The notes beneath the pieces were generated by a model that searched no databases, was not told where the DNA came from, and was given only the letters and a program-made list of their open reading frames with translations. Made by a program: the position numbers and the translations under genes. A stretch of DNA of 64,000 bases from Natronobeatus ordinarius (GTDB lineage Archaea > Halobacteriota > Halobacteria > Halobacteriales > Natrialbaceae), in NCBI RefSeq assembly GCF_024362485.1, contig NZ_CP101456.1, positions 682,001-746,000 of the forward strand, read 5' to 3'. Positions 24,149 to 34,968 of this stretch are shown here, one piece after another. The stretch's first letter is position 1, and each line of letters starts with the position of its first letter.

Positions 24149-24796
24149 CTACTCCGGTCGAGGGCCGTCCTCGAGGCGGCCGGGCCGTGACGCTCGGAGC
24201 CACCGACGAGCGAACGCGAGGTCAGAACGGGTGTTGACGTTCCAGAACGCACGATCACCGCCGGGGAGCCGGCGGGCCGATACCGCGTGGACGTCGAGGT
24301 GGTCGAAGAGCGCGCCGACCCGGCACCCCTGAGCGTCGCCGACGGCGTCGATCGCATCCTCGAGCGCGTCGACCCGATAGGTGCCACACAGCGGCTGTCG
24401 CCGGCCGTCGACCCGCGGAACGACGACGTCGACGGGGCGGGCTTCGAGTCGAGCCAGCACCGACGACAGCGTCGCCGTCGTCACGAGCGGGACGTCACAG
24501 CCGACGACGATCGCCACGTCGTCGTCGACCACGGCACACGCCGTCTCGAGCCCGGCGACGGGGCCGCTGTCAGGAACTCGGTCGATCGCGAACCGAACTC
24601 CCTCGCCGGTCGACAGCGCCGTTTCGAACGCCGGACGTTGTCCTTCGCGACAGTTCACGACGACGGCGTCGGTGATCGGCTCGAGTGCGCCCACGACGTG
24701 TCGAATCATAGGTGAGCCAGCGACGGGTGCAAGCGCCTTGTCGCCGGGACCGAATCGGCGTGAGGTGCCACCGGCGACGACGATTCCGGTTGTCAC
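24149..24796 (-). CDS. mobA: Molybdenum cofactor guanylyltransferase MobA
   Basis: Transfers GMP from GTP to molybdopterin to form the guanine dinucleotide cofactor used by DMSO-reductase-family enzymes. The 215 residues start with the signature VVAGGTSRRFGPGDKALAPV. The metal-binding VGCDVPLV and a CGTYR motif follow, all standard for MobA. It is the last enzyme gene in the transcription direction of the Mo-oxidoreductase cluster and lies 15 bases after the Mrp gene, so co-transcription is likely. The product directly serves the 929-residue bis-MGD enzyme encoded upstream. Confidence 0.92.
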   Translation of the reverse strand: MTTGIVVAGGTSRRFGPGDKALAPVAGSPMIRHVVGALEPITDAVVVNCREGQRPAFETALSTGEGVRFAIDRVPDSGPVAGLETACAVVDDDVAIVVGCDVPLVTTATLSSVLARLEARPVDVVVPRVDGRRQPLCGTYRVDALEDAIDAVGDAQGCRVGALFDHLDVHAVSARRLPGGDRAFWNVNTRSDLAFARRWLRASRPGRLEDGPRPE

Positions 24797-24811: not shown

Positions 24812-26092
24812 TCAGTCCGCCTCTCCGTCGCCCTCGGAGAAGTCGAGGCCACCGGAGACCGTCGACCCGGCCGGAGATTCAGCGTCGCTCGTCGGGTCGA
24901 CGTCCTCGAGATTGCCGGTGGTCGTCGGGTCGCCGGTGGTCGTCGGGTCGCCGGTGGTCGTCGGGTCGCCGGTCGGTCGCTCGGCCGGGGAGTCACTCGA
25001 GCCGCCGACGGGTTCTTCTGATTCGAGGCCGATCTCACCTGGCTCGACGCCGGCGGCGGACGCCCGGCCAACCGCGCCGACGCGGTTTGCCACGGCATCG
25101 ACGAGATTCGACAGCGGCTCCGCCGCAGGACCGCCGCCGAGGACGGCCGGCGGGCCGTCGGCGTCGTTTCGCGTCCGGATCTCGGGGTCCATCGGAACCT
25201 CGGCGAGCAGGGGCACGTCGTACTCCTCGGCGACCTCGCTCCCGCCGCCGCTGCCGAAGAGGTCGTGGATCCCGCCGCAGTCAGGGCAGTGAAAGCCGCT
25301 CATGTTCTCGACGAGCCCGAGGATGGGAACGTCGTGATCGGAGAAGATCCGCAGCCCCTTGCGAACGTCGTCGAGCGCGACGTCTTCGGGCGTGGTCACG
25401 ATGAGCGCGCCGGCCACCGGCACCGTCTGGAGCAGCGTCAGCTGGGCGTCACCGGTCCCCGGTGGAAGATCGACGACCAGGTAGTCGAGCCGCCCCCACT
25501 CGACGTCCTCCAGCAGTTCGACGATCAGCTTGTCGATCATCGGCCCGCGGAGCATTGCGGGATCGTGTTTCTCCTCGTCGGGGACGAGAAACGCCATGCT
25601 CATCATCGTCACGTCGTAGGCTACCGGCGGGACGAGCGTCGCGTCGTCGGTGACGCCCGGCTCAGCCTCGATGCCGACCATCCGCGGGACGTTCGGACCG
25701 TAGATGTCGGCGTCGAACAACCCGACGCGAGCGCCCGCGTCGGCGAGGCCAGCAGCGAGGTTGGTCGCGACGGTCGTCTTCCCGACGCCGCCTTTGCCCG
25801 AGGAGACGGCGATCACGTTCCTGACGCCCGGAATGGGGCTCCCCGGGTCGCGATCCGGGAGCGTCACGGAGAGCCGCGCCTCGAGTCCCAGCTCGTCGGC
25901 GGCCTCGCGGATCTGCCGTCCCATCGCCATCTCGTCGGGGGCGTACGGCGCGGCGAACTCGAGGGTGAGCTCCGCGACGCCGTCGGCCACGCGGAGCTCG
26001 TCGATCAGCCCGAGCGAGACGATGTCGGCGTCGAGCGCTGGATCCTCGATCTCGCCCAGTCGGTCGCGAAGCTCGGCTTCGGTGGCCGTCAT
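24812..26092 (-). CDS. Mrp/NBP35 family Fe-S cluster carrier ATPase
   Basis: A 426-residue P-loop ATPase that loads Fe-S clusters onto apo-proteins. An N-terminal SUF/DUF59-type domain covers ~1-85. The deviant Walker A SSGKGGVGKTT is at ~95-105, followed by DADIYGPNVPRM. A CPDC pair near residue 280 is the likely cluster-bridging site. The C-terminal ~75 residues are an unusual acidic tail containing GDPTTT repeated three times, matched by an 18-bp DNA repeat (24917-24970). It sits between the Fe-S-rich HdrA-like gene and mobA on one strand, which suggests it matures the clusters of this respiratory complex. Confidence 0.9.
   Translation of the reverse strand: MTATEAELRDRLGEIEDPALDADIVSLGLIDELRVADGVAELTLEFAAPYAPDEMAMGRQIREAADELGLEARLSVTLPDRDPGSPIPGVRNVIAVSSGKGGVGKTTVATNLAAGLADAGARVGLFDADIYGPNVPRMVGIEAEPGVTDDATLVPPVAYDVTMMSMAFLVPDEEKHDPAMLRGPMIDKLIVELLEDVEWGRLDYLVVDLPPGTGDAQLTLLQTVPVAGALIVTTPEDVALDDVRKGLRIFSDHDVPILGLVENMSGFHCPDCGGIHDLFGSGGGSEVAEEYDVPLLAEVPMDPEIRTRNDADGPPAVLGGGPAAEPLSNLVDAVANRVGAVGRASAAGVEPGEIGLESEEPVGGSSDSPAERPTGDPTTTGDPTTTGDPTTTGNLEDVDPTSDAESPAGSTVSGGLDFSEGDGEAD
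24917..24970 (-). repeat. 18-bp tandem repeat, three copies, in the Mrp tail
   Basis: GGTGGTCGTCGGGTCGCC occurs three times head to tail (24917, 24935, 24953) with no mismatch. On the coding strand it encodes GDPTTT units. Perfect identity at codon level suggests recent expansion by slippage. Confidence 0.85.
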
Positions 26093-26168: not shown

Positions 26169-28271
26169 TCATAATTTGAAGGCGAGTTCGCCCTTGCAGT
26201 CGCTGCAGTACTCGGCCATGTGGCCCTCGGCGCCCGGCAGTTCGCCGTCGGGGAGCTGGGCTTTCATGTTCTCGACGGTCGCGGTGCTGGTGAACTCCTC
26301 CCCGCAGCCCCGACAGGCGAAGGGCTCGTCCTCGTGGACGACCGTCCAGGCCTCCCCGCCGGTTCGCTCCGGCAGCAAGCCGAGGTCGAGTCCCGGCTCC
26401 ATCGTGATCGCGCTCTCGGGACAGCCGGTCTCACAGAGCCCGCAGTTGACACAGCGCTCGTGACTGAACTCGAGGCAGCCGTCCTCGTTGCGGATCGCGT
26501 CGACGGGACAGAGGTTCGAGCACGTCGGGGTCAGCCCACAGGCGTCGCTGACGGTCATCACGCCAAAGTTCTCGAGCCCCCGAATCCGGTCGCGGTCGGG
26601 CTCGACGTGGTCGAGGATCGCTCGGACGCTCTCGAGTGCCCACGTACTGTTCCCGTAGGCGGACCGTTCGTCGGCCTCGATCGCCCGACCCGTGGCCTCG
26701 TGGGCGCCGGGTGGGACGGGCGTCGGAGACAGGCCGTCGACGAACGTCGAGAGCGACGACCCAAAGCCTGCGGGGTCGTCGGGGTCGGGGGCGAGGAAGG
26801 CCACCCGTTCGCCGAGGCCGAGGTCCGTCGTCGCCCGGTTCAGCCGGTCGACGAACTCGGCCTTGGGATCCGGTCCCGAGTGCTGGCAGTCACAGCCACA
26901 GCCGAGAATCGTCACCCCATCGGCGCCCGCTGCGAGCGCGTGGAGCACGTGGGCCTCGCCGACGGTGTCCGTGCAGTCGACCGCGACGGGGAGGATCGGC
27001 GGGTAGGCGACGTCGGCCCGGCCGCTTGCGGCGAGCCGGCCGTAGCGTCTGAGCGCCGTCGCCGCCCGCTTCGAACAGACGAACGCCACGACCTGGGTGT
27101 CGATCGCCGGGCCCGACCGGTCGAGGAGACCGCCACTCGGCTCCGCGGCGACGAGCGCCTCCACCTCGCGGGCGAGTCGCTCGTTCGTGCGTTCGGGCAG
27201 TTCGACGGCGCCCGTCGGACAGGTGCTCGTACACGCCCCGCAGGTCTGGCAGGCCGCCAGATCGAAGGCGACCTCGTCGGGGGCCGGCCGGGAGACGGCG
27301 TCGTGCGGACAGGCTTCGACACAGGCCGTACACCCCTGCTGGCCGGAGTCGCCGGCCGCACAGATCCCGACGTCGTACTCGAGGCCCGAGGCGAGGTCGG
27401 CGTCGAACAGCGCGGTTACGGCCGCGACGGTCTCGAGCCCGCTTCCCGTGTGATAGCCCGTCTTCCCGCCGGGGGCGGGCGTCTCGGCACCCGGGTGGAC
27501 GACCTGGTCGACGGTGATCGTCTGCCGGGTTCCCCGAAGATCGATCGCGTTCGTCGGACAGACCTCGACCCACTCGCCGTCCGGCGCGTCGGGCGCGACG
27601 TCCACCGGCGTCCGCGTCACCGCGTCCTCGGGGCCGGCCTCGACGCAGCGCAGGCAGTCGATGCAGTCGTCGGTCACCCGCGCCTCGAGGGTCAGTTCGA
27701 ACCCACCCAGCGAGCCCGAAACGTCGACGACGCGGCCGCGCTCGAGGCGAACCCCCGCGAGATCGACGTCGATGTCGTCGAACTCCTCGCCGTCGGCGAG
27801 CAGGGTCACGTCGGCCGAGGTGGCGAGCGTGGACGCGAGGTCGGCGTCGCCGACGACGGCCACCGACCGGCCGACGGTCGCGTCGACCGCCGGCTCGTCG
27901 GCTCCGCCGTGGTCGAGGCTCGCCCGGGCCGCGTTCACGAGCCGGGCGGTCTTCTCCGTCGCTGCGCGCTCGTCGTGGACCCAGCCCGCCCCCTCGCGCT
28001 GATCGACGAAGTGAATAGTCACATCGGTCTCGGCCTCGATCCGCTCGAGGCTCGCCTGGCCGGCGGCGGCCGGACAGGTGACGAGCAGCTCCTCGAGGTC
28101 GCGCGCCTCGACGACCTCTCGAATATCGTCGACGGTTTCGGCGCCACACAGCAGGTCGGAGCTCGCCGCCACCTCGACGCCGTCGATTCGGTCGCGGACG
28201 GTCTCGAGGTCGAGCGCACACGTGCCGGCGCAGTCACAGACGAACGCACCGACGCTCGCGTCGTCGGTCAT
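26169..28271 (-). CDS. HdrA-like / MvhD-like iron-sulfur fusion protein
   Basis: A 700-residue electron-transfer protein. Residues 1-125 match the HdrA N-terminal domain (FVCDCAGTC; GAGWVHDERAATEKTARLVN). The HdrA FAD domain should follow, but 134-195 is short and SVAVVGDADLAS lacks the G-x-G-x-x-G dinucleotide motif. Ferredoxin motifs come next: CIDCLRC (203-209), CTACVEACP (314-322) and CQTCGACTSTCP (341-352). Residues ~394-520 are an MvhD/FlpD domain (AFVCSKR; GADGVTILGCGCDCQHS). A C-terminal two-cluster ferredoxin (CVNCGLCETGCP) and a zinc ribbon (CRGCGEEF, CSDCKGE) end the protein. It probably wires the Mo-oxidoreductase module to a soluble electron pool. Loss of the flavin site argues against bifurcation. 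Confidence 0.85.
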   Translation of the reverse strand: MTDDASVGAFVCDCAGTCALDLETVRDRIDGVEVAASSDLLCGAETVDDIREVVEARDLEELLVTCPAAAGQASLERIEAETDVTIHFVDQREGAGWVHDERAATEKTARLVNAARASLDHGGADEPAVDATVGRSVAVVGDADLASTLATSADVTLLADGEEFDDIDVDLAGVRLERGRVVDVSGSLGGFELTLEARVTDDCIDCLRCVEAGPEDAVTRTPVDVAPDAPDGEWVEVCPTNAIDLRGTRQTITVDQVVHPGAETPAPGGKTGYHTGSGLETVAAVTALFDADLASGLEYDVGICAAGDSGQQGCTACVEACPHDAVSRPAPDEVAFDLAACQTCGACTSTCPTGAVELPERTNERLAREVEALVAAEPSGGLLDRSGPAIDTQVVAFVCSKRAATALRRYGRLAASGRADVAYPPILPVAVDCTDTVGEAHVLHALAAGADGVTILGCGCDCQHSGPDPKAEFVDRLNRATTDLGLGERVAFLAPDPDDPAGFGSSLSTFVDGLSPTPVPPGAHEATGRAIEADERSAYGNSTWALESVRAILDHVEPDRDRIRGLENFGVMTVSDACGLTPTCSNLCPVDAIRNEDGCLEFSHERCVNCGLCETGCPESAITMEPGLDLGLLPERTGGEAWTVVHEDEPFACRGCGEEFTSTATVENMKAQLPDGELPGAEGHMAEYCSDCKGELAFKL

Positions 28272-28402: not shown

Positions 28403-29062
28403 TTATCGGTCGATCGTTACGCCTTCTTCCTCGAGCGCCGTCACGTGGAGGTCGAGGACGGCCTCGGTCAGCGCGAAGAGCCCGCGGTAGAACGCCGGGG
28501 GATCGTCCCGTTCGGCCGCGTCGTGGAACTCGGGGAGCCAGTCGCCGACGTGAGTCTCGACGAACGCGAGCTGGCGCGTCCGATCGCCCTGGGCACACAG
28601 CTCGGCGAGAAAGGCGAGTTCGTACCCCGCGTGGTCGACGAGGTGGTCGTCGACCGCGAGCTCGAATCCTGCTTCGAGGTAGAAGGCCTCGACCGCCGGC
28701 GAACTCGGGCCGTTGAGCACGCCGTCGACGTACAGCGACTCGTACGGCGGCGGCGTCGACTCCCCGCGGCTGACGCCGTGGAACAGCCGCGTGAACGCCG
28801 CCCGGAGTTGCTCGAGGTCGGTCTCGGCCGCCAGAACGGCGTCGACGGCCGTGGCGAGGTTGTCGGGCAGCTCTGGGTCGGTCGCGACGGCGCTACACAG
28901 CGACTCGAGCGACTCGAGAAGCTCGTCGTCGGGGGCCTCGAGGTAGGCCCGGCCGAGGGTCCGGTAGACCGGTGCCAGGAGCGGGCCGAGTTCCGAGGGC
29001 GTCGCGTCGTCGATCGTCGACGCAGCGGCGGACGGTCGGCCTGAACGGTTCGAATCGTGCAT
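28403..29062 (-). CDS. TorD/DmsD-type molybdoenzyme chaperone
   Basis: A 219-residue all-helical cytosolic protein of the TorD/NarJ family. These bind the Tat signal and cofactor-free form of a DMSO-reductase-family enzyme until the cofactor is inserted. Family features are YRTLGRAYLEAPDDELLESL near the N-terminus, FHGVSRGESTPPPYESLYVDG (the conserved pocket region, split here by a turn) and the late FYRGLFALTEAVLD. The client is presumably the Tat-exported Mo enzyme at 31551-34340. It lies 79 bases after the small membrane gene and 131 bases before the HdrA-like gene. The latter gap could hold a second promoter. Confidence 0.88.
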   Translation of the reverse strand: MHDSNRSGRPSAAASTIDDATPSELGPLLAPVYRTLGRAYLEAPDDELLESLESLCSAVATDPELPDNLATAVDAVLAAETDLEQLRAAFTRLFHGVSRGESTPPPYESLYVDGVLNGPSSPAVEAFYLEAGFELAVDDHLVDHAGYELAFLAELCAQGDRTRQLAFVETHVGDWLPEFHDAAERDDPPAFYRGLFALTEAVLDLHVTALEEEGVTIDR

Positions 29063-29141: not shown

Positions 29142-29336
29142 TCAGCCGGGGATGATGACCTGGAAGGCGATCGGGATGACCGCCCCGAGGACCATCGCCA
29201 AGAGCAGCGCCGCCATGACACCGACGCCGATCGCGGCCGTCCGGTTGTCGCGTGGCTTCCCGAGGAACCAGCCGAGCAGGGTGACGTACAGCGGCACGAG
29301 GACGATTCCGAAGATCACCCACAGTCCCATGCTCAT
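29142..29336 (-). CDS. Two-helix small membrane protein of the Mo-enzyme operon
   Basis: 64 residues with two predicted membrane helices: LWVIFGIVLVPLYVTLLGWF (5-24) and IGVGVMAALLLAMVLGAVIP (~36-55). A basic loop GKPRDNRTAA sits between them. The ATG overlaps the NrfD stop (ATGA at 29333-29336), so it is translated with the complex and is likely an accessory membrane subunit. I recognise no named family. It could stabilise NrfD or help quinone access; this is inference from position only. Confidence 0.8.
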   Translation of the reverse strand: MSMGLWVIFGIVLVPLYVTLLGWFLGKPRDNRTAAIGVGVMAALLLAMVLGAVIPIAFQVIIPG

Positions 29337-30694
29337 GCCTCGGTCACCTCCGCGTCGGATTCCGCGGCCTCGTCGGGGGCCGGGCTGGCGTGCTCGAGTT
29401 CGACGATCGGGATGATCTTCGTGGCGACGAGGAAGATCAACACGGCCACGGCGATCGTTCCGAACGCCATGGTGAACTCAGGAATCGTCGGCCAGTAGCT
29501 GTTCTCGGGGAACATGCCCGCGAGCGGGTCGCGCGTCGGGTAGAGCAGCCCCTCGACGACGAAGACGATCTTCTTCAGCAAGATTGCGCTCGTCACGAGG
29601 AACGCGGCGACCGCCGAGGCCGCGACGCTGTAGAGCGATGGGCGAAGCGCCTGGGCGACGAGATACGCCAGCGCGACGAGCAGGCCGCCGACGGCCAGCC
29701 AGAACGGCACTGCCATGCGGCCGGCGACGAGCGACTGGGTGAGCGCGCCGGTCTCGGCGGGTGCGGCGGGGTACGAGCCGGTAACGAGGCTCTGGAGCAG
29801 GAACCACAGCGTCACCAGCACGAGCGCGATCAGCGCCTTGTTCAGGCCGCGGAAGATCTCGTCGCCGATGACGTCGTCCCAGCCGTAGGCCCACCGGAAG
29901 GCAGCGGCGGTGATGACCACGGCGGCGATGGCCGAGGTCATCGACTCCGCGAACATCGCGGGGCCGTGGGAGGCGCCGAACCAGCCGGGGTGCATCCCCA
30001 TCGTGGCGAACAGCCACGGGACCACGCCGCCGCTCATCAGCGGGACGAGTAGCAGGATGCCGATCGCCATCCACCACGCCATCTGCGCGCTCTTCTCGCG
30101 CTCGCTGGGGCGGTAGCCGATCAGCAACAGTTTGTACAGCGGGTTCAGCGCCGACGGCAGCGTCCCGCGCTGCAGACAGTCGTGCAGGTCGGTCCGCAGC
30201 GTGATGATGAGGTACGTTCCCGCCATGATGAAGTAGAGGAACGTCGCCGTCATGTCCCAGGTCAGCGGCGAGGTCTGGACCGTCGTCGGCCAGTTGGTGA
30301 TCATCACCCAGAGCGTGTCCGGGCGGCCGATGTCGAACAGGATGTTCGTCGCCGCCATCGGCAGCGCGATCAGCGTCAGGATCTCGGCGATTCGGGCGAT
30401 CGGCAGGTACTCCTCGAAGTCGAAGAGACGAACCGCAGCCGAGATCGCCACGCCGCCGTGGGCGATGCCGATCCACCAGATGAACGTCCCGATGTACAGC
30501 CCCCACGGGACGCCACCCTGGGTCCCCCAGCCGCGCAGGCCGGTGACGGCCATCCCGAAGCGCAGCTGGCTGACGTAGGCGACCGCCGTCGCCAGCGAGA
30601 GGATCGCCGTGACAGCCAGCGCGACGTAGAACTTACTCGAGGTCCGCCGCAGCGGCTCGGTCAGCCGCTCGACGTCGGCGTCGATCGCGCTCAC
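29333..30694 (-). CDS. NrfD/PsrC-type quinone-interacting membrane subunit
   Basis: A 453-residue polytopic protein of about ten helices, the long form of the NrfD/PsrC family. It exchanges electrons between the Fe-S subunit and menaquinone. Typical stretches are GLYIGTFIWWIGIAHGGVAISA, FDIGRPDTLWVMI and GASHGPAMFAESMTSA. A charged ELEHASPAPDEAAESD tail is cytosolic or extracellular. No haem-binding motif is visible. Start and stop both overlap neighbouring genes by ATGA (30691-30694 and 29333-29336), fixing the operon order Mo subunit, Fe-S subunit, NrfD, small protein. Confidence 0.9.
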   Translation of the reverse strand: MSAIDADVERLTEPLRRTSSKFYVALAVTAILSLATAVAYVSQLRFGMAVTGLRGWGTQGGVPWGLYIGTFIWWIGIAHGGVAISAAVRLFDFEEYLPIARIAEILTLIALPMAATNILFDIGRPDTLWVMITNWPTTVQTSPLTWDMTATFLYFIMAGTYLIITLRTDLHDCLQRGTLPSALNPLYKLLLIGYRPSEREKSAQMAWWMAIGILLLVPLMSGGVVPWLFATMGMHPGWFGASHGPAMFAESMTSAIAAVVITAAAFRWAYGWDDVIGDEIFRGLNKALIALVLVTLWFLLQSLVTGSYPAAPAETGALTQSLVAGRMAVPFWLAVGGLLVALAYLVAQALRPSLYSVAASAVAAFLVTSAILLKKIVFVVEGLLYPTRDPLAGMFPENSYWPTIPEFTMAFGTIAVAVLIFLVATKIIPIVELEHASPAPDEAAESDAEVTEA

Positions 30695-31554
30695 TGGACC
30701 TCACCACCGTCGGCGACGAGGTACGCAGCGTCGCGCTCGCGTTCGGCCTCGATCGCCTCGTCGGTGTCTTTGTACTCGTTTTCCATCCCGCGGGCGGCGT
30801 TGCTCGGTTTGTCGCCGAGGTAGACGACGTTCGGCTCGTTGCCGGAGTTCTCGAGCATCTTCCAGCGCTGTTTGGCACCTTTCTCCTCGAGGTACTGGCG
30901 CGGCTTGCTCTGTGGGTCTTCCATGTCGCCGAAGTGGATCACGTTGATCGGACAGACCTCCTCGCAGGCGGTCGTCCCGGCCAGCTCGTCGTCGCCCGAG
31001 TCCTGGCGGTGGACACAGAAGGTACACTTGCCCATCGTGCCGACCTTGTGGTTGCCGCCACCCATCTTCGTCCCGCGTGGCTCCTGGGCCGCCTGGAGCC
31101 GCGGATTCTCCCAGGCACCGCCGGAGCCGTCGAGATCGGCGTCGAGTTCCTCGAGATTCTGGCGGACCTCCCGGGCGAGTTCGTCGTCAGCGGCGAAACC
31201 GTACTGTCCCTCTTCGGGGTCGCGCCACTGGAAGAAGTTGACGCCGTAGGGACAGCCGACCTCACAGTACCGACAGCCGATACACGTGCTGTAATCGGTG
31301 AGGACGATGCCGTCCTCTTCGCGCTTGAACCGCGCGTTCGTCGGGCAGACGTCCGCACAGGAGGGCTCCGAACAGTGGTGACACGGGTTCGGGGTGAAGC
31401 CCTGCTCGACGTCGGGGAACTCCCCTTCCTCGTAGCGGAAGACGTTCATCCAGAACGCGCCGCGCGGGGTGTCGTTCTCGGTCTTGCAGGCGACCATGCA
31501 GGCGCGACAGCCCTGACAGCGCTCGACGTCGATGACCATGCCCATCTGGCTCAT
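30691..31554 (-). CDS. Four-cluster ferredoxin-like subunit (DmsB/PsrB type)
   Basis: A 287-residue electron-transfer subunit with four 4Fe-4S motifs. The first is CQGCRACMVACK (Cys 13, 16, 19, 23), the second CHHCSEPSCADVCP, the third CIGCRYCEVGCPYG, and a fourth includes CTFCVHRQ and CEEVCP. An insert with FFQWRDPEEGQYGFAADDELAREV and a GSGGAWENPRLQAAQEP loop between clusters is longer than in DmsB. It has no Tat signal of its own, so it would be exported by hitch-hiking on the Mo subunit. It overlaps both neighbouring genes by ATGA. Confidence 0.93.
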   Translation of the reverse strand: MSQMGMVIDVERCQGCRACMVACKTENDTPRGAFWMNVFRYEEGEFPDVEQGFTPNPCHHCSEPSCADVCPTNARFKREEDGIVLTDYSTCIGCRYCEVGCPYGVNFFQWRDPEEGQYGFAADDELAREVRQNLEELDADLDGSGGAWENPRLQAAQEPRGTKMGGGNHKVGTMGKCTFCVHRQDSGDDELAGTTACEEVCPINVIHFGDMEDPQSKPRQYLEEKGAKQRWKMLENSGNEPNVVYLGDKPSNAARGMENEYKDTDEAIEAERERDAAYLVADGGEVQ

Positions 31555-34340
31555 GCACCATCACCCCCGGCGGGCTCGACGTTCACACGGATGTGGAACG
31601 ACTGGTCGGCCGACCAGGAACAGTAGCCTTCCGTCGAGTCGAACAGGTCGTTGGGGTTCGCCCCCTCGTCGAGTGCTTTCACGTTCGGGTGTTTGGTGTG
31701 GGTGTCGTTTCCGTAGGGAATCGCGATCGTTCCCGGTTTGATTCCCTCGAGTACCATCAGGTCGCCCTCGAGTTCGTACGTGTCGCCGGTGACCGCGTTG
31801 TGACTCTCGATACGGACGCGGTCGCCGTCGGAAACGCCGATCTCCGCCGCGTCCCGCGGATTCATCCGGACGTGGTTCTTCGGCGCGAGTTCGTTGAGCA
31901 GCGCGTTCTGTGCGGTCCGGGACTGCTTGTGTTCGATCTGTTTGTAGTCGAACAGGGTGAGGTCGTACTCCTCCGGGGAGTTCCACATCGTGGGCTCGCG
32001 CCACTGTGCGAAGCCGGTGATGTCCTGGATGTACGGGAACTGATCGACAGCGTCGTCGCCGTACTCCGCCTCGAAGCCCTCGCGGACGTTCCGTCCGAGG
32101 AGTTCGAACGACTCGAGGTAGAACTGCCACTTGAAGCCAAAGAGACTGTACTCGGTCCGGTGGACGTCCTCGTCGAGGTGCTCGGAGACCGGCATGAGCG
32201 CCCAGTAGCGCTCGGTAAGCGGTCGTTCGACGCTCTGTGGGCCGTCGCGGTACTCCTCGCCGTAGCGGGGCGAGCGGTCGAGACACGCCTCGACGGTGAG
32301 GTCGTCGACGCTCTCGAAGGCGTCCGCGTCCTCGAGTTCGAACGCGTCGTTGACGAACTCGACGTAGCTGTCGCCGGCACCGAGCGCGTCGGCGAGCTCC
32401 TTGAAGATGTCACCCTCGTCGCGGCACTCCCACAGCTGTGGGATCGGGGCCGTCCGCGTCGAACTCGTGTAGTGGGTGTTGCTCATCCCGCCTTTGGCGT
32501 TCTCGTTCTTGTCGACGGTCGTCGTCGGCAACACGTAGTCGGCGGTGTACGCTGCCGTGTCGCTCATGAAGGGATCGACCGCGATGACCGTCCCGTACTG
32601 GGAGTAGCCCTCCCTGGATCGCTCCCTGTTGGGGGCACCCGCGAGCGGGTTCGCGTAACAGACGACGCAGGCCATCTCCGACGGATCGTGCGGGAGGTTG
32701 TACTCGTCGGGGTTGTTGAGGACGTGTGGAACCCTGGCGTACGCCCCGTTGGCGTCCGGGTGAAAGTACGTGCCCTCGAGGTCCGGGCCGTCCGGTTCCC
32801 AGGAGAGCGCCTCCTCGGGGTCGAACGCCTGCGCGCGGACGTGTTCTCTGTTGGAGGGGTCCGGCGCGTTGAAGTAGCCCGTTCGGCTGGCGCCGACCGT
32901 CTCGACTGCACCGACGAGAAACAGCGGCATCATCCCCGCCTGCATCGCGGTCGGGCCGAGTTCCTGCTGGCTGACGTGGTACAGCGACATCGAGACCGGC
33001 CGGTAGGGTACCTGCCGTCGTTCGCCGTCGACGTCGACCGTCGTGGTCGCGCCGATGCGTGCCTTCTCGCCCCACTTTCGGGCGACCCGCCGGATCTGCT
33101 GGGCGGGGAGGTCGGTGATCTCGGCCGCCCACTCCGGCGTGTAGTCGGCGACGTGCTCTTCGAACAGTTCGAAGGCGGGACGGACCGCGTCGCCGTCGAC
33201 CTCGAGGTCCTCGTCGACCCGGAGCGCGGCGGTGCCGACCGCCGTCGGATCGTGGGGGTCCTCGGGCAGCGTCTCCTCGTGGGGCACGATCTCGCCAGCC
33301 TCCTCGTCGTAGACGAGTTCGCCTTCGGTCCAGAGCACCGATTCGACGGGGTCTTCGGCGTCGTCGGCGCGGGCGATCTGGCCTTCGTTCTCGCCTTCCG
33401 TGTAGACCAGACACGGGGCGTTGGTGGTGTTCGTGAGGAACCACTCGTCGACGTAGCCCTCCTCGAGCAACACGTTGCTCATCGCGAGGAAGAAGGCCAG
33501 GTCGGTGCCGGGTTCGATCGGCATCCACTCGTCACACCACTGGCCCGCACCGCGGCGCTGGGGGTCGAGCACGGCGACCTCCATGCCGTCTTCGTACCCC
33601 TCGGCCATCTCCCTCGAGTACGTGGTGTTGCAGAGGTGTGGCCCACCTGCCTGCGTGGCGTTCCAGCCCCAGTTCAGGAAAAAGTCGGTGTTGTCGAAGT
33701 CGGGTTCGGGCGAGGAGAACCCAGCACCCATGCGGCTGAGTGCCATCTTGTTGCCCGTGGCACAGACGTTGCCGTGCCCACGGACGTTGACCCCCTCGCC
33801 GTAGGTCTCCTCGAGCGCGGCGACCCAGCCGTCCATGTGCCACTCCGCACCTTTCACGCGCCCGATCTGGAAGTGGACGCGGCGGGGGTCGTCCTCGAGC
33901 ATCGGTCCGAGCTCGGCTGCGATCTCCTCGGCGGCCTGTTCCCAGGAGATCGGCTCGAATTCGCCTTCCTCGCCCTTCTCGCCGCCGACGCGCTTGAGCG
34001 GCTGTTTGATCCGGTACGGATCGTAGAGGTCGGCGACCGTCGACGCACCCTTCGGACAGATGCCGTCGATCACCTCGTCGTTCGGTTCGGGTCGCAGCTG
34101 GACGACGCGGTCGTTCACGACCGTCGCTCGCATCGTACAGTCCTGCTTGCCGATCCAGCAGGCCGTCGACACCTCCTCGACGTCGAACTCGAGTGACTGG
34201 CCGGCGCTTCCCGTCTGGCTGAAGTACTGCGCGCCGCCGACGCCGACGCCGGTCGCGGCCGCGGCGAGCGCGAACGACTTCAACACCGTGCGCCTCGAGA
34301 CGCCCTCGTCTGTCTCTTTCTCGGTGACGTCCAGACTCAT
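31551..34340 (-). CDS. Tat-exported Mo/W-bisPGD oxidoreductase, catalytic subunit
   Basis: A 929-residue DMSO-reductase-superfamily enzyme. The twin-arginine signal is SRRTVLKSF (residues 15-23) with an alanine-rich core, so it works outside the membrane. The N-terminal cluster site reads C61-x2-G64-x3-C68 ... C95: the usual second cysteine of CxxCxxxC is glycine. Cys193 in GHGNVCATG is the probable metal ligand, which points to the Psr/Phs/Ttr/Arr-like group and not Ser-ligated DMSO reductase. MGD-binding stretches include LDPQRRGAGQWCDEWMPIEPGTD and NHVRMNPRDAAEIG. The ATG at 34340 is preferred over the GTG at 34355. The acceptor or donor substrate cannot be named. It heads the operon. Confidence 0.88.
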   Translation of the reverse strand: MSLDVTEKETDEGVSRRTVLKSFALAAAATGVGVGGAQYFSQTGSAGQSLEFDVEEVSTACWIGKQDCTMRATVVNDRVVQLRPEPNDEVIDGICPKGASTVADLYDPYRIKQPLKRVGGEKGEEGEFEPISWEQAAEEIAAELGPMLEDDPRRVHFQIGRVKGAEWHMDGWVAALEETYGEGVNVRGHGNVCATGNKMALSRMGAGFSSPEPDFDNTDFFLNWGWNATQAGGPHLCNTTYSREMAEGYEDGMEVAVLDPQRRGAGQWCDEWMPIEPGTDLAFFLAMSNVLLEEGYVDEWFLTNTTNAPCLVYTEGENEGQIARADDAEDPVESVLWTEGELVYDEEAGEIVPHEETLPEDPHDPTAVGTAALRVDEDLEVDGDAVRPAFELFEEHVADYTPEWAAEITDLPAQQIRRVARKWGEKARIGATTTVDVDGERRQVPYRPVSMSLYHVSQQELGPTAMQAGMMPLFLVGAVETVGASRTGYFNAPDPSNREHVRAQAFDPEEALSWEPDGPDLEGTYFHPDANGAYARVPHVLNNPDEYNLPHDPSEMACVVCYANPLAGAPNRERSREGYSQYGTVIAVDPFMSDTAAYTADYVLPTTTVDKNENAKGGMSNTHYTSSTRTAPIPQLWECRDEGDIFKELADALGAGDSYVEFVNDAFELEDADAFESVDDLTVEACLDRSPRYGEEYRDGPQSVERPLTERYWALMPVSEHLDEDVHRTEYSLFGFKWQFYLESFELLGRNVREGFEAEYGDDAVDQFPYIQDITGFAQWREPTMWNSPEEYDLTLFDYKQIEHKQSRTAQNALLNELAPKNHVRMNPRDAAEIGVSDGDRVRIESHNAVTGDTYELEGDLMVLEGIKPGTIAIPYGNDTHTKHPNVKALDEGANPNDLFDSTEGYCSWSADQSFHIRVNVEPAGGDGA

Positions 34341-34407
34341 GGTGTCGACCACCACCAGTCGATCGCCCCCTGTGAGTGGCTCTCGTACATCAACTGCACG
34401 TATTACG

Positions 34408-34587: not shown

Positions 34588-34968
34588 TCAGAAACCGGGA
34601 ACCGGCGCGTCGACGCCGTGTCTGTCCCTGACGGTCTGAATGAGCCGCTCTGCGAGCGGGGTCGGCTCGTAGTATCGCCACCGTCCCTCTTTCGTCCGGG
34701 AGACGAGCCCGTCCTTTCGAAGCTGCGACAGCGACTGGCTGATGCTGCTCTGTCCGACCTCGAGGTACGGCTCGAGTTCACAGACGCAGACCGGCTTCTC
34801 GGCTGCGTCGAGGATCAGCAGAATCCGATACCGGGTTTCGCTGCCCAGTGTAGAGAAGATCTCGATCTCCTCGTCGACCGATCGGTCCGACAGCTCATCG
34901 ACCTGCTCCTCGGAGAGGACGAATGAACAGTCGGCGGGACCGGTCGATCGTTCGTCGCTATCACTCAT
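34588..34968 (-). CDS. ArsR-family regulator upstream of the Mo-enzyme operon
   Basis: A 126-residue winged-helix protein. Its core runs EIFSTLGSETRYRILLILDAAEKP, then CVCELEPYLEVGQSSISQSL and the wing SRTKEGRWRYYEPTP. The two cysteines in CVCEL sit where several ArsR repressors bind metals or sense thiol redox state. It is transcribed toward the Mo-enzyme operon, ending 248 bases before its ATG. It looks paralogous to the ArsR at 23652-24038 at the other end of the cluster. It is probably the local regulator; effector unknown. A small palindrome TCATATGA lies just before its start. Confidence 0.88.
   Translation of the reverse strand: MSDSDERSTGPADCSFVLSEEQVDELSDRSVDEEIEIFSTLGSETRYRILLILDAAEKPVCVCELEPYLEVGQSSISQSLSQLRKDGLVSRTKEGRWRYYEPTPLAERLIQTVRDRHGVDAPVPGF

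Follow-up and report, generated by a model that had tools for sequence, protein, structure and literature searches.

A predicted flavin-less HdrA-MvhD fusion protein is a probable maturation factor for Tat-exported iron-sulfur oxidoreductases in Halobacteria

We investigated what a relative of the electron-bifurcating HdrA proteins contributes to an operon for an exported molybdoenzyme in Natronobeatus ordinarius. The 700-residue protein, here termed HdrX, is encoded in a 64,000-nucleotide stretch of the genome (the window). As listed in Table 1, the gene order is MobA, Mrp, HdrX, TorD, a 64-residue membrane protein, NrfD, the Fe-S subunit, the Mo subunit and ArsR. The small membrane protein gene stands between those for NrfD and TorD, and the complex may include its product as a small subunit. 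The best PDB matches of the Mo subunit were ArrA (6cz7) and thiosulfate reductase (2vpw), and an SRRTVLK motif is present; the enzyme is of the Arr/Psr type, and the genome lacks an exported formate dehydrogenase (FDH) of the kind linked to HdrX elsewhere. The hdrX reading frame was judged to be real, as homologues of the same layout, with up to 70% identity, were found in 77 of 292 Halobacteria genomes. A literature search found no paper on this haloarchaeal protein.

Table 1. Genes of the HdrX operon and domains of HdrX, with positions in the window
Feature	Position	Strand	Basis
MobA-like molybdenum cofactor guanylyltransferase	24149..24796	-	PF12804; Natronorubrum bangense relative annotated likewise
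Mrp/ApbC-type iron-sulfur carrier ATPase	24812..26092	-	PF10609 (E=7e-89), PF01883
HdrX, 700-aa predicted flavin-less HdrA-MvhD fusion	26169..28271	-	ORF translation, families, relatives
HdrX 4-Cys zinc-ribbon or rubredoxin-like end, residues 650-695	26187..26324	-	Cys table, profile match
HdrX added ferredoxin, residues 575-626	26394..26549	-	Pfam, profile, Cys table
HdrX MvhD/FlpD domain, residues 394-514	26730..27092	-	PF02662, Foldseek to MvhD
HdrX HdrA C-terminal dicluster ferredoxin, residues 304-360	27192..27362	-	Pfam, profile, Cys table
HdrX second FAD-domain remnant, residues 245-303	27363..27539	-	Alignment, segment lengths; rest (~200 aa) deleted
HdrX inserted-ferredoxin remnant, residues 200-245	27537..27674	-	Alignments, Cys table
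HdrX collapsed first half of FAD/Rossmann domain, residues 134-200	27672..27872	-	HdrA alignment, low-confidence model
HdrX HdrA N-terminal domain, residues 1-110	27942..28271	-	HdrA profile, Foldseek, alignment
TorD-family chaperone	28403..29062	-	PF02613, TorD match
Conserved small membrane protein, 64 aa	29142..29336	-	Same position in L031, L073, L076
NrfD/PsrC membrane anchor	29333..30694	-	PF03916
Fe-S subunit, ArrB/DsrO-like	30691..31554	-	Domain and family matches
Tat-exported molybdopterin catalytic subunit, Arr/Psr/Phs type	31551..34355	-	PF00384, weak TAT_signal match
ArsR-family regulator upstream of operon	34588..34968	-	PF01022, NF033788 over cut-off

The N-terminal domain of HdrX, which carries C12, C14, C18, C42 and a REGAGWVHD motif, was identified as that of HdrA by profile, Foldseek and alignment alike, in agreement with an initial annotation made from the sequence. 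Compared with HdrA structures, the HdrX family profile gave chain 9sfi_A as the top match (E=2e-23 over the whole chain), with the best stretch at residues 2-139 and the matching parts in the N-terminal domain and the C-terminal ferredoxin. Foldseek placed HdrA chains on top (E=2e-12) for a model of residues 1-300 and returned HdrA and MvhD for the full-length model. Both models are weak (mean pLDDT 58.0 and 52.6, respectively) and were used for fold matches only; for the structural comparison suggested by the initial annotation, they were too weak to judge the FAD-domain remnant in detail. The inserted ferredoxin is likewise recognisable, as a remnant with only four cysteines (C203, C206, C209, C238) and hence one cluster site. 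Further along, the C-terminal HdrA ferredoxin is retained (C304, C314-C321, C341-C351), and the PF02662 match to FlpD/MvhD (E=5e-16) contains C399, C433, C458 and C462; this part of the model resembled the MvhD fold with a target-normalised TM score of 0.70 at 2.9 Å. The MvhD fusion and the ferredoxin behind it had been predicted correctly, and the predicted zinc ribbon corresponds to a four-cysteine end of zinc-ribbon or rubredoxin-like type, but the count of two ferredoxins had overlooked the C-terminal HdrA module, which brings the total to three. The added ferredoxin has C578, C584, C588, C607, C610, C613 and C617, and the four-cysteine end C653, C656, C689 and C692; Pfam ferredoxin matches lie around residues 313-355 and 602-623, and a profile match to HycF (7z0s_F) extends through the four-cysteine end. 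Type Ia HdrA/HdrA2-MvhD proteins (PMC12054007; NF040770) have the same order of N-terminal domain, inserted and C-terminal ferredoxins and MvhD, whereas in HdrX the FAD domain is cut to two short remnants and the extra ferredoxin and four-cysteine end are present. HdrX scored 97.6 bits with NF040770, against a cut-off of 1100 bits.

To quantify the loss, we placed the FAD domain in an alignment of HdrA and HdrA2 sequences (methanogens and relatives). Only 180 residues remain of this thioredoxin-reductase-like domain of ~417, so that ~237 are missing. The distance from the W-V-H motif to the first cysteine of the inserted ferredoxin is 104 residues in HdrX versus 139 in HdrA, and that from the inserted to the C-terminal ferredoxin is 76 versus ~278. 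By alignment and the low-confidence model, what is left is a short beta-alpha-beta unit and a few strands, and a search of the window copy for GxGxxG was negative; the collapse of the Rossmann domain had therefore been read correctly. In HdrA, E356 and K409 sit near FAD N5 (PMC12054007); in the alignment their equivalents fall in segments that are deleted or not conserved in HdrX, and the missing stretch includes the segment that holds the N5-stabilising lysine. Because the models are weak, the conclusion on the flavin rests on the alignment and the segment lengths, which argue that the flavin site, and with it bifurcation, has been lost, as the initial annotation had claimed. That the shrunken Rossmann remnant still holds a flavin or nucleotide and performs a reduced form of HdrA chemistry is highly improbable: the beta-alpha-beta unit persists and two members have a glycine-rich loop, but ~237 residues including the segments near FAD N5 are gone, and a GxGxx[GA]-type remnant was found in only 2 of 88 relatives and was absent from the other 86. 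The glycine-rich loop, which is GGGxxG-like, occurs in the remnants of L061 and L116, both from anaerobes, and may represent a halfway point in the loss of the flavin. HdrX has neither a recognisable flavin site nor one for NAD(P)H, and no domain of the NAD(P)H-binding kind was detected in it. In HdrA, Cys197 of one protomer coordinates the N-domain cluster of the other (PMC9012536); the alignment also showed that the loop carrying this residue is deleted in HdrX. C18, which is present in 96% of FDH-linked haloarchaeal copies and in none from anaerobes, could be a new haloarchaeal substitute for Cys197. Taken together, these comparisons suggest that HdrX is a derivative of an HdrA-MvhD fusion from which the flavin domain was deleted, and that the scaffold of an electron-bifurcating enzyme has been reused without its flavin.

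The cysteines of HdrX differ in their conservation across relatives. All eight of the C-terminal ferredoxin (C304 to C351) are invariant in all relative groups, those of the added ferredoxin and the four-cysteine end are 97-100% retained, and C12, C14 and C42 of the N-terminal domain are conserved. The N-domain cysteines are mostly gone in divergent haloarchaeal members, and those of MvhD are absent in hydrogenase-linked and divergent members and partly absent in anaerobes. In Halobacteria the added ferredoxin has lost the second cysteine of its first motif (C581). Bacterial HdrX is without the cysteines of the inserted ferredoxin and of MvhD and retains the C304-x9-C314 spacing, the added ferredoxin and the four-cysteine end. 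The invariant core of HdrX is two ferredoxin modules plus the four-cysteine end.

We sought the partners of HdrX by comparing its distribution with that of other genes. The catalytic subunit of FDH was detected, like HdrX, in 77 of the 292 Halobacteria genomes: 74 had both, 3 HdrX alone, 3 FDH alone and 212 neither (Fisher p=1.6e-61, which overstates independence because the genomes are related), a concordance of 286/292. Each of the 76 FDH-associated copies of hdrX shares a contig with the FDH gene, at a distance of no more than 10 kb in 75 cases, and every FdhA N terminus inspected has a twin-arginine motif. The predicted linkage with quinone-linked Mo operons of the NrfD type is therefore conserved, and it extends mainly to FDH. 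Of the genomes with HdrX alone, the window genome (G000) and G285 have an Arr/Psr-type operon in place of FDH, and in G160 the copy is truncated and has no Mo gene in its vicinity. Among those with FDH alone, G182 has a divergent HdrX adjoining TorD and the locus of G282 runs into the end of its contig, which leaves G129 as the real exception, with an FDH with TorD plus an Arr/Psr operon and HdrX in neither cluster. An N-terminally truncated, apparently decaying copy was seen in Natrialba swarupiae (L033 9944-11821 / L075 9245-11122), with Mrp and without a Mo operon. A DUF7124 protein recurs at haloarchaeal FDH-HdrX loci (L040 12264-13172 and others). The DNA polymerase II large subunit encoded in the neighbourhood of two loci (L058 6972-11798 and L060 3811-8691) exceeds that of L059 by ~500 residues in length and seems to contain an intein.

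The description of HdrX as an aerobe-type protein is not supported, since Alphaproteobacteria and MAGs of anaerobic Halobacteriota have the same FAD-less form. Full-length relatives are present in other families of the phylum outside Halobacteria; in the class of G314 (58 genomes), HdrX was found in 24 and FDH in 17, 16 of which have HdrX, and three incomplete MAGs (G522, G537, G538) have HdrX-TorD with FDH undetected. TorD adjoins HdrX in nearly all loci of anaerobes, commonly with FdhA, FdhB and an anchor, and some additionally hold an IscU-like (NifU_N) scaffold, TatA and TatC, with MobA also found in such clusters. These clusters fit a published account of ANME-1, in which exported FDHs accompanied by DmsC-like genes are scattered (PMC9012536). 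G314 itself, where FDH was not found, has the order TatA, HdrX, NiFe hydrogenase small and large subunits, HycI, HypB and HypF. Hydrogenase was rejected as a general partner, as its small subunit is present in 17 of the 58 genomes without tracking HdrX and is linked to it only in G314. Across lineages, TorD, Mrp, an IscU-like scaffold, TatA/TatC, MobA and FdhD were the steadiest companions of HdrX, while the anchors of the linked enzymes vary (NrfD, DmsC-like, cytochrome b561). Neither HdrB nor HdrC was recognised among the neighbours inspected, in a comparison short of an HdrB/C profile scan of every protein. QmoB, the HdrA-MvhD protein of the Qmo complex, is tied to quinone-linked respiration and is described as a flavoprotein with the partners QmoA and QmoC. 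Compared by description, HdrX shares the HdrA-MvhD make-up and the quinone link, and QmoA/QmoC-like partners were unseen at HdrX loci.

In Alphaproteobacteria, which were sampled through plasmids only, six loci have an HdrX homologue beside FDH3 and TorD, with Mrp following HdrX in three Roseobacteraceae and FdhD/MobA/MobB in Microvirga. This protein, annotated '4Fe-4S binding protein' in FDH3 operons, is homologous over its full length in profile comparisons (261 and 228 bits) and matches HdrX in the N-terminal domain, the C-terminal ferredoxin (C-x9-C), the added ferredoxin and the four-cysteine end. At the level of the family, FDH3, TorD and in part Mrp are common neighbours, with the window copy beside TorD and an Arr/Psr-type enzyme; the differences lie in the inserted-ferredoxin and MvhD cysteines noted above. 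It is probably the 'fer4' gene of Bay et al. (PMC4464133), who named this gene, along with hypothetical ferredoxins, among those of TorD-fdh operons and analysed them no further. By gene position only, Shewanella SO_4506 is a candidate counterpart.

In the initial annotation, HdrX probably connected the membrane Mo-enzyme with pools of NAD(P)H or ferredoxin, a role for which the missing NAD(P)H domain, the Tat signals of the partners and the maturation and export neighbours are unfavourable. We also considered a flavin-free wire on the cytoplasmic side that would pass electrons between a cytosolic carrier, e.g., ferredoxin, and the membrane complex, with MvhD for docking. Every domain of HdrX is an electron-transfer module, methanogen MvhD accepts electrons from FDH or hydrogenase (PMC9012536), and the neighbour of HdrX is FDH in most genomes and, in a single case, a NiFe hydrogenase. 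However, the Tat signals on the partner catalytic subunits mean that these act outside the cell, the differing anchors offer no common docking partner, and whole lineages that lack the MvhD and N-domain cysteines still keep the gene linkage. The retention of the core cysteines where those of MvhD and the N-terminal domain vanish is unlike an end-to-end wire, and we consider this model unlikely.

Our statements on function draw on genomic context and conservation. The FDH, Arr/Psr and NiFe hydrogenase partners have Tat export and Fe-S clusters in common, and the position of HdrX beside exported FDHs and assembly genes suggests that it probably helps to build these enzymes rather than carrying their electrons. 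Precedents are NapF, a cytosolic four-cluster protein without which the NapA cluster is not reconstituted ahead of Tat export, and FdhE, which is CX2C-rich and restricted to periplasmic FDHs (PMC10609526). As with HdrX, their genes accompany those of Tat-exported molybdoenzymes, and the proteins are cytosolic and either Fe-S-containing or CX2C-rich (PMC10609526); unlike HdrX, they are without HdrA or MvhD domains, and we found no specific homology of HdrX to either beyond generic ferredoxin and CxxC motifs. FdhE gave no match in 350 archaeal genomes (292 Halobacteria, with the window genome, and 58 anaerobes), and FdhE_N (PF04216) was not among the Pfam matches of HdrX. Cooperation of FdhE with HdrX in these archaea was rejected, as FdhE is absent from all 350. 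Bacteria with TorD-fdh operons are reported to possess both FdhD and FdhE (PMC4464133), so HdrX need not replace FdhE. Given the shared Tat export and Fe-S clusters, the constant chaperone, Fe-S, Mo-cofactor and Tat neighbours, the NapF/FdhE precedents and the absence of FdhE, we prefer a model in which HdrX is a cytosolic, NapF/FdhE-like Fe-S maturation factor that acts with TorD on Tat-exported Fe-S oxidoreductases, and we regard this as reasonably likely. HdrX would bind the enzyme precursor and, with TorD and an Fe-S carrier (Mrp or an IscU-like scaffold), act on the enzyme before its export, helping to load or reduce Fe-S clusters and the metal cofactor ahead of Tat transport; it may do so by donating clusters, donating electrons or proofreading. 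Counterpoints are that so cluster-rich a protein also suits electron transfer and that FDH went undetected in the three incomplete MAGs with HdrX-TorD. It is quite improbable that HdrX is instead a proofreading or redox-sensing factor whose labile clusters hold or release the precursor with no donation of clusters or electrons. TatA/TatC adjacency and the constant TorD partner agree with such a factor, and the ferredoxin without C581 and the inserted one with half its cysteines in Halobacteria are compatible with it, but there is no direct sign of sensing, and the Mrp, IscU-like, MobA and FdhD neighbours favour cofactor supply over gating alone. More broadly, and tentatively, the maturation model can be extended to a system spanning Archaea and Bacteria, in which a flavin-stripped bifurcating scaffold might serve as the Fe-S donor or reductase that loads FDHs, and in occasional cases a hydrogenase or a reductase of the arsenic/sulfur type, ahead of their export by Tat.

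How HdrX came to the window was addressed with a tree of 88 relatives, in which the copies linked to Arr/Psr group together as a single clade (support 99) within the haloarchaeal sequences. More distant Arr/Psr operons (~45% identity; G059, G177, G223) have Mo-FeS-NrfD with TorD and/or Mrp and no HdrX. The simplest reading is that HdrX came out of an FDH locus and was inserted between TorD and Mrp of an Arr/Psr operon; the alternative is its loss from the other Arr/Psr operons. The window copy probably serves the Arr/Psr-type NrfD operon and was probably recruited from FDH loci. In Natronorubrum bangense (L165 12819-15065), arsD and arsA follow the Arr/Psr-HdrX-Mrp operon, hinting at an arsenic substrate. 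A strict need of the Mo enzyme for HdrX was rejected, since G129 and the HdrX-less Arr/Psr relatives show that HdrX is not strictly required.

If the maturation model is right, HdrX would supply a missing step in the making of exported FDHs in Archaea, for which the search for FdhE was negative, and the same step in many Alphaproteobacteria, where the gene carries only a generic annotation. It would then also be relevant to the production of active FDHs for CO2 reduction in foreign hosts.
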